Source: Chalara sp. BL73 (Eukaryota; Ascomycota; Leotiomycetes; Helotiales). Taken from it: a DNA stretch of 64,000 nt. A model generated the notes under the pieces. The model saw nothing but the letters and a program-made list of their open reading frames with translations. It ran no database searches and was not told where the DNA came from. Positions 36,288-42,573 of the stretch are shown piece by piece (position 1 is the stretch's first letter; the number at the start of each line of letters is the position of its first letter). The stretch covers positions 62,001 to 126,000 of the forward strand of contig CAKJVC010000021.1 of NCBI GenBank assembly GCA_918026815.1, given 5' to 3'. The position numbers and the translations under genes were made by a program.

Positions 36288-36462
36288 GCAGGTTTGGCCG
36301 AGTGGTCTAAGGGTTAGTAGCGCGCCCCTACCATAAACCCCAAATATGCCCTATTCTAACTAGTAAACAGCGGTGGTTTTAAGTTGAAGCGTGTCCTCCA
36401 GGACCACGACAGATTCATCACCACTATCGAGAGATGCGTGAGTTCGAACCTCACAGCCTGCA
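36288..36462 (+). tRNA. tRNA-Leu(UAA) with two intervening sequences
   Basis: Acceptor halves GCAGGTT (36288-36294) and AGCCTGC (36455-36461) pair with one G-U, discriminator A at 36462. The A box TGGCCGAGTGG (36295-36305) and T arm GTGAG-TTCGAAC-CTCAC (36438-36454, with B box) are canonical. The variable arm TATCGAGAGATGC (36425-36437) is very like that of yeast tRNA-Leu. Anticodon stem GTGGT (36373-36377) pairs with ACCAC (36420-36424); loop TT-TAA-G plus C gives anticodon TAA at 36380-36382. Between 36383 and 36419 is a 35-nt intron at the canonical 37/38 site. In addition the D stem is interrupted after GG (36311-36312) by 58 nt (36313-36370) beginning GTTAGT, containing CTAAC at 36356-36360 and ending ACAG. 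Removing both leaves 82 nt with a full D stem (GCC/GGC) and position-26 G. Confidence 0.85.
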
Positions 36463-36469
36463 TCATTCA

Positions 36470-36474
36470 TTTTT
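36470..36474 (+). terminator. RNA polymerase III terminator of the tRNA-Leu gene
   Basis: Five T on the coding strand, 8 nt after the discriminator base, the usual Pol III stop signal. Confidence 0.7.
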
Positions 36475-37031: not shown

Positions 37032-40021
37032 TCATCGCGCGTAAGGATGGAAGCCCCTTTGCCCACCTCTTCCACCTCCACGATAATTCGCACCAGGCTT
37101 TCCCGCATTCTTAGGCCCGGTTGGCGCGTTAGGGGGAGGAGCCTTTGCCGGATCAGAAGGAGCAGAACCCTTCGCGCTTCCTGCCTTTCCAGCACCATTT
37201 GAAACAGCCGGCTGAGGAACATCATCGTACATGCCCTCCCATGAAGTGGGCCCTCCTCCATATCCTCCCCCATATTGGGATGGATCTCTCTGGCGACGCA
37301 TCTGCTGCTGTTCATACTTCTGTTGCTCAAACATCTGCTGCTCATATGCATTATATCCCGGCGTGCCCATCCGTCCACCTGGGTTGTTCTGGCCTCCAGC
37401 CGCGTAGTTGTTGGCACCTCCACCCATCCCGCCCATCATCTGCATTTGTTGCATTTGTTGCATCATCTGAGGCGTCATGCCAGCCATACCCGCCATGTTT
37501 GGCATAGAATTGCCTTCCTGAGGGCTTTGGCTCCGAGTACCATTCGCTCCTCCCCCCTGCATTTGCTGCTGCATAGCTTGCATCGCCATCATCTGCTGCA
37601 TCATCTGAGGATTCATGCCCCCCATACCCATGCCCCTTCCCATGGCCATCTGCTGTTGCATCATAGCAAAGTATTGTTGCATTCTTTGCCAGTATTGAGC
37701 CATGACTTGTGGTGTCATGCCATTTGGGGCTTGTTGACCACCAAGCTGCTGTTGATTTGGGTTATTTGTTTCCTTGCGGAATTGTCCTCGTCCTGCGCCA
37801 TGATTACGCTCCTCCTCCTCGCGCATGTTGCCTCTTGGTTGTGCCTTCTTGACCTCAATGGGCTTGCCGTGGATCTCAAGTGGAACCTGTAAGCAGGCAT
37901 CAACTGCTGCCTCGTTGTCGAAAGTGACGAAACCAAATCCTCGGGGTCGGCCAGTATCCTTGTCCATCATAAGAGTAGCATCGACAACTCGTCCAAATTG
38001 AGTAAAGTAATTCTTGAAGTCTGCCTCGGTAGCTTCTTGTGAAACACCACCGACGAAGATCTTGCTGGTTCGCTCTTGCTCATCCCTTGGAATTGCTCTT
38101 TTTGGATCAATCTTTTTCACGTTATTAGTATTTATTTGCTTACGAATTCTTTTAAAAATAAAAAAATAAAATAAAAATTGCTCTGGTGCCATAGATAAGA
38201 AGATGCAGAAAGACGGTACTGTCGAATCTAAAGAAGCCGATAGTGTGGTCGAAAAAAACAGATGCTTACAGATTTCCCATCGAGCCAATGCTCTTTCACC
38301 ATCACAATATTGACAGTCTTTGGGTCTTTGAAGGTAAGAAAACCAAAACCTCTAGATCGACCAGAGGCGCCATCTCTCATAACCGTGCATTCTAAAACTT
38401 CACCAAATTGCGAAAAATAATCCTTCAGAGATTCTAATATCTAATTAGGCCCGTCGTTATGATTGTTATCACATCACTTACGGTCTGTTGTCTCCCAATT
38501 CAACCCACCAATGAACATCTTCCTGCACATTAATTAAGTTAGCAACTGAAACGGCCTAAATAATCGACCAAAAACTAGGTGAATAAATTCCAGGGTAAAC
38601 GGTTCAAATTCTCAGATCCCTGGGTATTTGCCTCTGAGGATGATAGTTGTAGCAATTTCCCATACGCAATGGGATATTTTCGGGGCGCGTATTTGCTAAG
38701 TTTTGGCACGCTAGAGCTTCCAAATGCCATGAAAATCTCAAGTAGACTCTATTTCATCCTTCCAACAAAGGACAGTAGTGGCAAAGAGTAAGAGAAGATA
38801 GAGTCCGTGATGAATGTCCTGGAAATTTGGCAACGCGAAACCCTTGATTGTGGGGAAGTTTTCCACACTCGAGAACAAAGCATCATTGACAGACAGCCAA
38901 ATGAATCCTGCAAGTCATGCAATGAAGTCTGACGCGACAAGAGATCCAAGAACAATCGTTGTTTGCTATCGTGATGCTAGGTACTGTTGTCGCGCTAGAC
39001 GCTCCCTCTTGTGCTATAGAGTTTATGTAGTCCTCTTCCATCCATGAAGCTCTATGAACATAACTAGGCTATGTAGTAGCTCATCTATGGCCGCAGATGA
39101 TGTTGGGTCCATAAGGCGAAGTTTTTGCTCCTCTAATCTCCATGTCTCCTACTCGTTCCTCTAGGTCTAATTGCACCTTCAAATGTTTATAGGCTTGCTT
39201 GACTCCGATCCCTAAGTTGACTCATCTCATGTTTAATGGCGGCTATGCTATCGTTGCTGAAGTTCATGCATTCCAGTTCATCCTCTTTTTATTTGCGATT
39301 TGTGTACCACGAATTGTCTGAGTATTGTACCCGATGATTACATCAAGCTAGCCACCATCGCCATTCGCTCAGGATTGTAATCCATTATATCAAGCAATTC
39401 GCTCAGATCTGAATCGAGCCCCATATAATTGACCACTCTGAATTCCTTCGCTTTCCCACGGATTCATTCTCAGGTACGGTCGCATCCCAGCCCCAGGATC
39501 TCGGAAGAATGCCTCCCCAGCTTGAGGATATAGTATCAGAAATAAAACTAAATGAAAATCATCTTACCCGTCTTCCTTGATGCCTGGACCACTTGATTCC
39601 TGATGTTGCGCAGGAGCATCATCATAACCACCGCCTCCTCCATTGCCTAGATTGAAATCTATCTCATCTTCATCTTCCTCGGCATACATCTGTTGGTCTC
39701 CATCGCCATTTTCCTCATGTTTCTCTTCTGCCTTAACCTCAGCGGGTGCTACGCTCTCGGATTTCGTTTCAGGGGCAGTATCGTGTTTTGCTGGTCCGTC
39801 GTCATCAGCATACCTAGACAAGGGTTAACAAATCAAATTCCGTAGAAGACGAAAAATGAGAGTGATGGACAACGAATCAATATCACCGAAATAGTTGTCA
39901 TGGTGTTCGGTGAGGGCGCTGGCTCGTACTAAAAAAGAACGGTCCTAATAGAGTATGAGGATAAAGGTTACACATACAGATCTGCAAATAGGTCGTCCTC
40001 AAAATTGTCCGCCTCTGCCAT
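37032..40021 (-). CDS. HRP1: HRP1/Nab4-type hnRNP, mRNA 3'-end cleavage factor IB
   Basis: Five exons on the minus strand: 39978-40021, 39568-39813, 38482-38522, 38270-38433 and 37032-38111, phases closing to 524 aa. Seen: an acidic N-terminus (MAEADNFEDDLFADL...), RRM1 with RNP2 FIGGLN (100-105) and RNP1 RSRGFGFLTF (about 136-145), the linker LDGKSIDPKRAIPRDEQE that is diagnostic for Hrp1, RRM2 with KIFVGG (about 182) and RPRGFGFVTF, then a Gln/Met-rich region (MMQQQMAMG type repeats) and an RGG-like tail ending RGFHPYAR. Yeast Hrp1 binds UA-rich elements in pre-mRNA and acts in 3'-end processing and export, shuttling from the nucleus. The intron between exons 2 and 3 is about 1,045 nt, far longer than any other intron in the window. 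Confidence 0.94.
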
Positions 40022-40445: not shown

Positions 40446-42573
40446 ATGTTCTCCTCTTCGGGCAGTAGCAAGAAGCCGGTGCAACAGGTGAGCCCAAAAA
40501 ATTCTGTCCTGGCATAAGTAATTCTAACGTCTTTTCTTAGGAAATGGTTCAGGTCGGTGAGTCCACTTCAGGCCCAGAGCTTGCTTCACAGCTGCTATAT
40601 ATTCATTCGTGTTGAAACGAATATTGCGCTAATACGTGGTCCGGAAAATCTAGAGCGGACAGAGTATGTTCAATTCATCTCTTCCAAATCTATAGACTTC
40701 AAAGAAGAGAATACCCTGTGAAGGCAAGAGACAGTCCGCTGACTTGGTCACTAGGACATCGTCCCCTTTCTGGCGTAGCAGAACTTCCCTAGCCCGTCGA
40801 GATTCTTCTCCCATAAAGCAGGTGCGAGACCCGAGTCTGGTGGTTGGGGCATCATACTCCCACGCGGACATGCTAGCCTTTGATAACTTGTGTGTACTAT
40901 GGAAACCCGAGCTAGGACACAGTTGACTAGTTGCCTAGATCCCTATCGTCGAACTCAGCACGGCCCAAAACTCCACCAAGTTCTTCATCACATAAAGCCA
41001 GAAGCAGTACCCCTCCAATAAGAGGGGTATCTGGACTTACCTCACCCCCAAGGAGGACCTACACCGATTTTCTCTCACATACTAATGATGACTGGAACGT
41101 GGACGACGATCTTGAGGACGATGACGAATATGGGTACGATAATGATGATGGAGATGATTTTGGGTTGCCAAGTCTATCCAGCATGAAACGTAAATCAAAG
41201 AACAAGCCAAATCAGGGCAACGCAGCACCAAGTGGAAGTCTCTCACCGCTAGGGCTTGGTTTGCAAGGTAGTATTGGGGGCCTTGGACAACGAAGATTCT
41301 CAAATAGTGAAGATATCGCAATTGAACGACCATCGCCAACCTACCCTGTTGCCAAGAAGAGTGAAGGGAAGATATTGAGGCCACAGTATAAGGAGATTCT
41401 TCGAGACCCGGCGAACTCGTTACATCTTATCAATCACCCTCCGGTTCCTGTGACCGGAACGCCAAAAGAGCTCGATGTTCACTCGGCAAGAATAACAAGA
41501 ATAAATAAGTTCAAAAAGATTTTACAAGCTACTTCAATATCCTTAACAGATTTGAGATCCCTCGCATGGTCCGGTGTACCAGAAGAGGTTAGGGCTATGA
41601 CCTGGCAGCTGTTGCTCGGATATCTTCCAACAAGTAGTGAAAGACGAGTATCCACACTGGAACGCAAACGAAAGGAATATCTGGATGGGGTTCGGCAAGC
41701 ATTCGAGCGCAGTGGGAAGGATTCCTCGGTTCCAGGTAAAGCAAGAGGGCTTGACGAAACGATATGGCACCAAATCAGTATCGATGTTCCACGTACAAAT
41801 CCACATTTGGAACTGTATGGCTATGAGGCGACACAACGATCATTAGAGAGGATATTATACGTCTGGGCTGTGCGACATCCAGCCAGTGGCTATGTGCAAG
41901 GTATCAACGACCTTGTCACACCTTTTTGGCAAGTATTTCTCGCCAGTTACATTGGCGATTCAGATATTGAAAGTGGCATGGATCCAGGGCAGCTGCCCAA
42001 AACCGTTCTCGATGCAGTAGAAGCAGACTCTTTCTGGTGCCTGACGAAGTTATTGGATGGCATTCAGGACAACTATATTTTTGCTCAACCAGGCATACAG
42101 CGCCAGGTTGCAGCTCTTCATGATCTCACTGCCCGTATTGACGTACCGCTTGCAAAACACCTTGAGCAAGAGGGCGTTGAGTTTATACAATTCAGTTTCC
42201 GATGGATGAACTGTCTATTGATGAGGGAAATTAGTGTGAAAAACACTATTCGGATGTGGGATACCTATATGGTTAGTATATTCTAGGTTTATTGCCATCT
42301 GTAAACTAACACTACATTTAGGCTGAGGAACAAGGCTTCTCTGAATTCCATCTATACGTCTGTGTTGCCTTCCTCGTCAAATGGTCAGACAAGCTTCTTA
42401 AAATGGACTTTCAAGAGATCATGATGTTTCTTCAGGCTCTACCAACACGGAACTGGACTGAAAAGGATATAGAGCTTCTTCTAAGTGAAGCATTTATATG
42501 GCAATCGTTGTTCAAAGGATCCTCATCACATTTACGTGGCGGTTCTAGCACAACTCCATCATCAGCTACCTAA
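40446..42573 (+). CDS. GYP1: GYP1-type TBC-domain Rab GTPase-activating protein
   Basis: Proposed exons: 40446-40487, 40541-40552 (12-nt micro-exon), 40931-42271 and 42322-42573, all phase 0, 548 aa. The two last exons are firm; the third opens directly after an in-frame TAG, so the start must come from upstream, and 40446 fits without phase conflict. Seen: a Ser/Pro-rich, acidic N-terminus, then a TBC domain from about residue 220 with the arginine finger in ISIDVPRTNP (Arg near 306) and glutamine finger in YVQGIND (Gln near 341), FRWMNCLLMREI and the C-terminal FLVKWSDKLLKMDFQEIMMFLQ helix (in parts). Gyp1 stimulates GTP hydrolysis by Ypt1/Rab1 at the Golgi. N-terminal exon model moderate, identity strong. 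Confidence 0.88.

Follow-up and report, generated by a model that had tools for sequence, protein, structure and literature searches.

The window, a 64,000-nucleotide stretch of Chalara sp. BL73 DNA, carries on its forward strand a tRNA-Leu(UAA) gene that is interrupted twice. Exon 1 (36288..36312, tRNA positions 1-24) comprises the 5' strand of the acceptor stem, the A box and most of the D arm, and the acceptor stem is formed by GCAGGTT and AGCCTGC (36288-36294 with 36455-36461). The A box, TGGCCGAGTGG (36295..36305), is uninterrupted and agrees with the consensus at 11/11 positions. Between positions 24 and 25 lies a 58-nt insert with the features of a spliceosomal intron (36313..36370). 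It starts with the 5' splice site GTTAGT (36313..36318), contains the branch-point motif CTAAC (36356..36360; branch A at 36359, 11 nt before the 3' end) and ends in ACAG, of which the last three bases (36368..36370) are read from the sequence as the 3' splice site CAG. Exon 2 (36371..36383) contributes C25, G26, the 5' strand of the anticodon stem, the anticodon TAA (36380-36382) and position 37. It is followed by a canonical 35-nt tRNA intron at 37/38 (36384..36418; i(39,35) according to ARAGORN) and by exon 3 (36419..36462), with the 3' strand of the anticodon stem, the variable arm, the T arm, the 3' strand of the acceptor stem and the discriminator A (36462). The B box, AGTTCGAACCT (36441..36451), is also uninterrupted and fits the consensus at 9 of 11 positions. 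A T5 Pol III terminator can be read at 36470..36474. The original prediction had described a complete, fully paired tRNA with both boxes and a T5 terminator, cut in its D arm by a 58-nt insert with these motifs and carrying a second, normal intron, and all of this is borne out by the sequence and by the 35-nt intron found by ARAGORN. The one-base shift that it allowed at the borders of the insert is real as well.

Standard tools do not see this gene: over the whole window, ARAGORN in its default mode reported no tRNA and Rfam gave no match at gathering thresholds. When applied to the gene itself with introns allowed, ARAGORN made no call on the intact sequence, and none when only the anticodon intron was removed. 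Removal of the 58 nt, in contrast, yielded tRNA-Leu(taa)i(39,35), and removal of both introns yielded tRNA-Leu(taa). The check proposed at the outset, i.e. detection with and without 36313-36370, had thus a clear outcome, tRNA-Leu(taa) being called solely after removal of the insert. At this locus ARAGORN also accepted two other GT..AG removals, calling Gly(ccc) in one case and Lys(ttt) in the other, both with odd introns. It therefore does not by itself fix the borders of the insert; these are set by the pairing and by the splice signals. A covariance model derived from the Leu(UAA) and Leu(CAA) genes of the same genome aligned the gene with a long D-arm insertion at 69.3 bits, which is a self-match by construction. 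Its border lies three bases earlier, giving a 59-nt insertion with the insert's own final AG and one non-standard pair, and this arrangement is less well paired. The original prediction had also pointed out that GTTAG at the start of the insert is complementary to CTAAC near its end and that the two could form a helix. The complementarity exists, though it is a consequence of the two splice motifs, and on their own the 58 nt fold weakly (-4.9 kcal/mol). A functional role for this pairing was therefore dropped.

The signals of the insert were compared with those of introns in protein-coding genes of the window, the comparison covering about five introns of two genes, one of them about 1 kb long. 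Intron 2 of gyp1 (42272..42321, +), which is a reference mRNA intron placed by alignment to Calycina marina gyp1 (P0121), is 50 nt long and reads GTTAGT...ACTAAC...TTTAG, with its branch A 12 nt before the end. Its 5' splice site is identical to that of the insert in the tRNA gene. Intron 1 of gyp1 has no clear CTAAY, and the long intron of an RNA-binding protein gene starts with GTAAGA and ends with GCTAAC...TGCAG. The latter gene (window 38523-39567, minus strand) has an intron of about 1 kb, which is long for a fungus. The protein nearest to its product comes from Bisporella sp. PMI_857 (95% over 91% of the query), which also has a protein 99% identical to the dioxygenase encoded nearby, and the gyp1 protein is closest to that of Calycina marina; Bisporella belongs to the Helotiales, Leotiomycetes. 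Homology-placed introns were used in this comparison, as ab initio prediction of mRNA introns by coding score had given 9 candidates versus 8 in reversed controls.

Fifteen ORFs of the window reach 250 aa or more; 11 of them together comprise 5067 codons, 49 of which are UUA, so that a tRNA-Leu(UAA) is needed. Further genes of this kind were sought in the 58.66-Mb assembly (199 contigs). When either the gene or the joined tRNA served as a DNA query, no locus was retrieved besides the one in the window (contig C18), and an exact D-arm-to-anticodon pattern had no match in the assembly. The motif TGGCCGAGNGGTNNAAGG, with at most one mismatch, occurs at 8 sites, the Leu(UAA) gene among them. One of the others (L014) is an intact gene with a normal D arm and a 32-nt intron, which ARAGORN labels Val(cac) and which we read, against this label, as Leu(CAA). 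Two more sites, L013 (C55) and L015 (C134), are degenerate Leu-like tRNA sequences with unpaired stems; our guess is that they are relics, possibly RIP-mutated. At the four further sites ARAGORN found no tRNA, and one of them (L017) gave a weak match to the model (14 bits, E 0.11). A D-arm-to-TTAA pattern was found at 10 sites with at most two mismatches, one being Leu(CAA), and at 8 sites in its gapped form. None of the remaining 17 sites had a model match at the site itself; the single match in these loci (13.3 bits, E 0.18) lies elsewhere in L030. Counting the tRNA-Leu(UAA) genes of the genome, as had been suggested, thus revealed no second one by DNA, pattern and model searches of the assembly. 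At this sensitivity, the window gene is the sole tRNA-Leu(UAA) gene found, although a strongly diverged copy may exist, as may one outside the assembly, which is perhaps incomplete.

The Leu(UAA) gene is not the only tRNA gene of this genome with such an insert. Altogether there are five unrelated inserts at six loci, in tRNAs of five identities and at five different positions. Besides the Leu(UAA) insert (C18, 24/25, 58 nt; GTTAGT, TCTAAC, CAG; branch A 11 nt before the end), a Lys(UUU) gene is interrupted between positions 9 and 10 by 54 nt (C121:417558-417611; GTAAGA, TCTAAC, CAG; branch A at 12 nt). Two duplicate Lys(CUU) loci, L080 (G000:C57:26006-26112, minus strand) and L081 (G000:C62:990685-990800, plus strand), share the same 50-nt insert in the T loop (C57:26055-26006 and C62:990735-990784; GTGAGT, GCTAAT, TAG; branch A at 10 nt). 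An initiator Met gene contains 55 nt after A14-G15 (C86:1179079-1179133; GTAAAT, ACTAAC, TAG; branch A at 11 nt), and an Ala(CGC) gene, L076 (G000:C83:86769-86912, minus strand), contains 52 nt in the D loop (C83:86893-86842; GTAAGT, TCTAAC, TAG; branch A at 11 nt). Like the Leu(UAA) gene, the latter also has a canonical anticodon intron, of 20 nt; a tRNA-Arg gene happens to lie within 0.3 kb of it. Once the insert was removed, ARAGORN called a tRNA at all five of these other loci.

For several of these genes an uninterrupted counterpart exists. The Lys(UUU) gene on C49 equals the C121 gene minus its 54 nt, and the Lys(CUU) gene on C141 equals the C62 gene minus its 50 nt. The flanks that C141 and C62 have in common extend over 12 bp upstream and about 53 bp downstream (second aligned piece, 88.7% over 71 columns). 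An alignment of the C57 and C62 loci, 1001 columns long and with 7 gaps, shows 98.6% identity, and a one-base deletion has shortened the T stem on C57. The initiator Met tRNA has 4 matches in the genome, of which only that on C86 is interrupted. The latter differs from its uninterrupted paralogue on C11 at 8 of 72 positions, all of them in 4 fully compensated base pairs, which implies that the body of this gene was once under selection, though it does not date the insert. Two near-identical, insert-free initiator Met genes, L117 (G000:C134:27-99, minus strand) and L118 (G000:C82:213477-213549, minus strand), are one base longer than that on C11 and have a changed T loop (GGATCAAAACC); they are possibly decayed. 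No second Ala(CGC) gene was found, as a genome search with the spliced Ala(CGC) sequence returned only the C83 locus.

The survey from which these loci emerged favours whole genes, and it did not extend to many identities, Phe, Asp, His and Tyr among them. A search of the genome with the Rfam tRNA model gave at least 58 matches (63 of 2453 candidates scored), those on organelle-type contigs included, and 3 of the 58 were without part of the tRNA. With 18 tRNA genes from the same genome as the query, 38 of the best 40 of 46 places matched end to end and 2 were interrupted (C121 and C57); the Lys(CUU) gene on C62 was absent from these 40. Among the 38 end-to-end matches were a degenerate Ser sequence on C134 and, on the same contig, a Gly(TCC) gene (L120, G000:C134:267842-267925) whose anticodon loop contains an 11-nt intron; an intronless Gly(TCC) gene is found on C62. 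A query of eleven yeast, human and Neurospora tRNAs matched the genome at 4 places, each of them an initiator Met gene. The Ala(CGC) insert was confirmed by in silico removal of candidate introns across sampled DNA (357,810 bases from 121 sources). Removal of all 6779 GT-CTRAY-AG candidates of 45-80 nt led to 25 junction-spanning ARAGORN calls versus 11 for length-matched random deletions, many calls on both sides being trivial (beside the end of a tRNA or overlapping the same inserts), so that this procedure served as a finder and a check rather than as a statistic. The survey being partial, more interrupted tRNA genes are likely to exist.

All five unrelated inserts start with GT and end with AG, and in all five a CTAAC or CTAAT places the branch A at 10-12 nt from the end. 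The fungal branch-point consensus is RCTRAY, at 6-36 nt from the acceptor (PMC5832005). The distances observed in the inserts fall within this range, whereas R precedes the motif in only 2 of the 5 (Lys(CUU) and Met), the base in the Leu(UAA) intron being a T. For stretches as long as the inserts, the window offers about 127,900 positions, and an initial GT, a terminal AG and a CTAAY 5-25 nt upstream of the end coincide at 14-21 of them; for 58-nt stretches, the count is 14 of 127,884 positions on both strands, i.e. about 1e-4. The last exon base before the insert is a G in four cases and a T in one, and the border ambiguity deduced from the sequences amounts to 0-2 nt. With lengths of 50-58 nt, the inserts are close to gyp1 intron 2 (50 nt).

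These findings argue for the spliceosomal option, which is clearly the best of the three offered by the original prediction in view of the four further unrelated inserts and of the window mRNA introns with the same signals. We considered the possibility that the interrupted genes are dead copies, i.e. that DNA resembling spliceosomal introns entered redundant tRNA genes and that a working Leu(UAA) gene was missed elsewhere. According to PMC4090602, D- and T-arm insertions in eukaryotes mostly affect a gene that has many synonymous counterparts, and such interrupted copies are regarded as pseudogenes. The existence of uninterrupted paralogues for both Lys genes and for Met fits this idea, and so does the state of the promoter boxes, one of which is split or weakened in each of the three other genes scored, namely Lys(UUU), Lys(CUU) and initiator Met. 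In Lys(UUU) on C121 the insert splits the A box, which scores 9/11 at its normal place and 10/11 across the intron end; in Lys(CUU) it splits the B box (8/11); and in the initiator Met gene on C86 the A box is weakened (10/11 at its normal place). Since the inserts disturb promoter boxes and uninterrupted paralogues exist, the interrupted Lys and Met copies may indeed be dead, the base lost from the T stem on C57 pointing in the same direction. Yet the Leu(UAA) gene has kept its stems, both boxes and its terminator, the searches turned up no further Leu(UAA) or Ala(CGC) gene, the changes in the Met gene on C86 are all compensated, and decay would leave unexplained the precise splice signals in five out of five inserts. 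The broken-copy option of the original prediction is therefore possible for the Lys and Met copies and less likely for Leu(UAA), and as an account of the whole set we regard it as improbable. From its sequence features we hold the Leu(UAA) gene to be a working gene, and the Ala(CGC) gene probably is one too.

The insert might also be a second tRNA-type intron, located at a non-canonical position and cut out by the tRNA splicing endonuclease. Some eukaryotes do have introns of this sort (PMC4090602), the Leu(UAA) gene already contains one endonuclease intron, and the sequences around the borders of the inserts can be folded into short helices. This idea does not predict GT, CTAAY with a branch A at 10-12 nt, and AG in each of the five, and the inserts are not at 37/38, the fungal position, since they lie at 24/25 in Leu and at other sites in the other four. 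We consider it very unlikely. A strict bulge-helix-bulge motif was found in none of four inserts (Ala left out), though also in none of three canonical control introns, which makes it a weak discriminator. Introners, which are mobile intron-forming elements, would account for several apparently recent insertions in one genome, as witnessed by identical genes with and without an insert. In a genome search that skips very common words, each insert matched only itself or, for C57 and C62, its duplicate locus, and this lack of similar introns elsewhere in the genome argues against introners. In addition, the four inserts compared (all but Ala) are no more alike than shuffles, and the border ambiguity is only 0-2 nt. 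The insertion of an introner is, in our opinion, the least credible of these explanations.

The most plausible interpretation is therefore that a Pol III tRNA gene has acquired the 58 nt as a U2-type spliceosomal intron, in one of at least five independent gains of this kind. We consider this conclusion likely; it is drawn from the anatomy of the insert, its recurrence in other tRNA genes, the uninterrupted counterparts and the lack of another Leu(UAA) gene in the searches. It suggests that, in Chalara sp. BL73, the mRNA machinery also has to trim tRNAs. In the mechanism that we propose, Pol III would use the intact A box and B box of the Leu(UAA) gene and transcribe it as far as the T5 terminator. 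The spliceosome would recognize GTTAGT, CTAAC and CAG and remove 36313-36370, thereby completing the D stem, and the pre-tRNA would then fold and lose 36384-36418 through the tRNA splicing endonuclease and ligase. Sen54, as reported in PMC4090602, contacts the D arm, and since this arm is incomplete before removal of the D-arm intron, the spliceosomal step would come first. The introns could have been gained, for example, when an intron was reverse-spliced into a tRNA and the product reverse-transcribed, or by another kind of intron gain, though this is a guess. With somewhat less assurance, we think it probable that the helotialean lineage to which this fungus belongs has repeatedly gained spliceosomal introns in D and T arms of tRNA genes, that transcripts of the Leu(UAA) and Ala(CGC) genes, which are the only genes found for their anticodons and contain both kinds of intron, need the spliceosome as well as the endonuclease, and that translation of UUA codons depends on the spliceosome.

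If this class of tRNA introns is real, it would mean that the spliceosome acts on Pol III tRNA precursors in nature and that the decoding of a codon is linked to mRNA splicing. It would also make intron gain directly visible, through identical genes with and without an intron in one genome. As the Leu(UAA) gene escapes both ARAGORN and Rfam, tRNAs that are absent from fungal annotations may hide in the same way.

Among open-licence publications, judged by their titles and the beginnings of their abstracts, none was found that describes a nuclear tRNA gene with a spliceosomal intron. To our knowledge, the known tRNA introns are of the group I, group II or endonuclease type. The nearest precedents are the spliceosomal introns in U6, a Pol III RNA, and in U3, where they are described as normal spliceosomal introns. 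The introns of fungal U6 snRNA and U3 snoRNA are likewise of the mRNA type (GT-AG) and located in small structured RNAs. These are not tRNAs, however, whereas we deal here with five unrelated introns in five tRNA identities, two of which (Leu and Ala) have a canonical intron beside them. Spliceosomal introns are also present in the rDNA of lichen ascomycetes, and baker's yeast removed a lichen one from Pol I-made rRNA, as reported in PMC8527467; these too lie outside Pol II genes, but in Pol I-transcribed rRNA rather than in a tRNA.

The canonical eukaryotic intron at 37/38 is present in the same Leu(UAA) gene, and the insert differs from it both in position and in signals. The tRNA introns of archaea, nucleomorphs and Cyanidioschyzon are not known to have branch-point signals. 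These introns resemble the present ones in lying outside 37/38, D and T arms included, but they are ascribed to the tRNA splicing endonuclease, with a bulge-helix-bulge in Cyanidioschyzon, according to PMC4090602; there, non-canonical introns in eukaryotes are supposedly rare and known from nucleomorphs and Cyanidioschyzon. In tRNAscan-SE 2.0, the analysis of non-canonical introns is described for the archaeal search model (PMC8450103).

The U6 gene of S. pombe contains an intron, as titles cited in PMC5832005 indicate, and a U6 intron of this kind would have been a precedent within the genome of Chalara sp. BL73. None was present in the 6 above-cut-off genome matches, each of which covers the whole model in 97-110 bases, and this candidate was abandoned; a seventh match is weak (18.9 bits). 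Separately, contig C115 of the assembly (G000) is AT-rich and carries organelle-type tRNAs. On it, four pairs of tRNA matches recur at a spacing of about 43.7 kb, which looks like a mitochondrial genome assembled twice in tandem.
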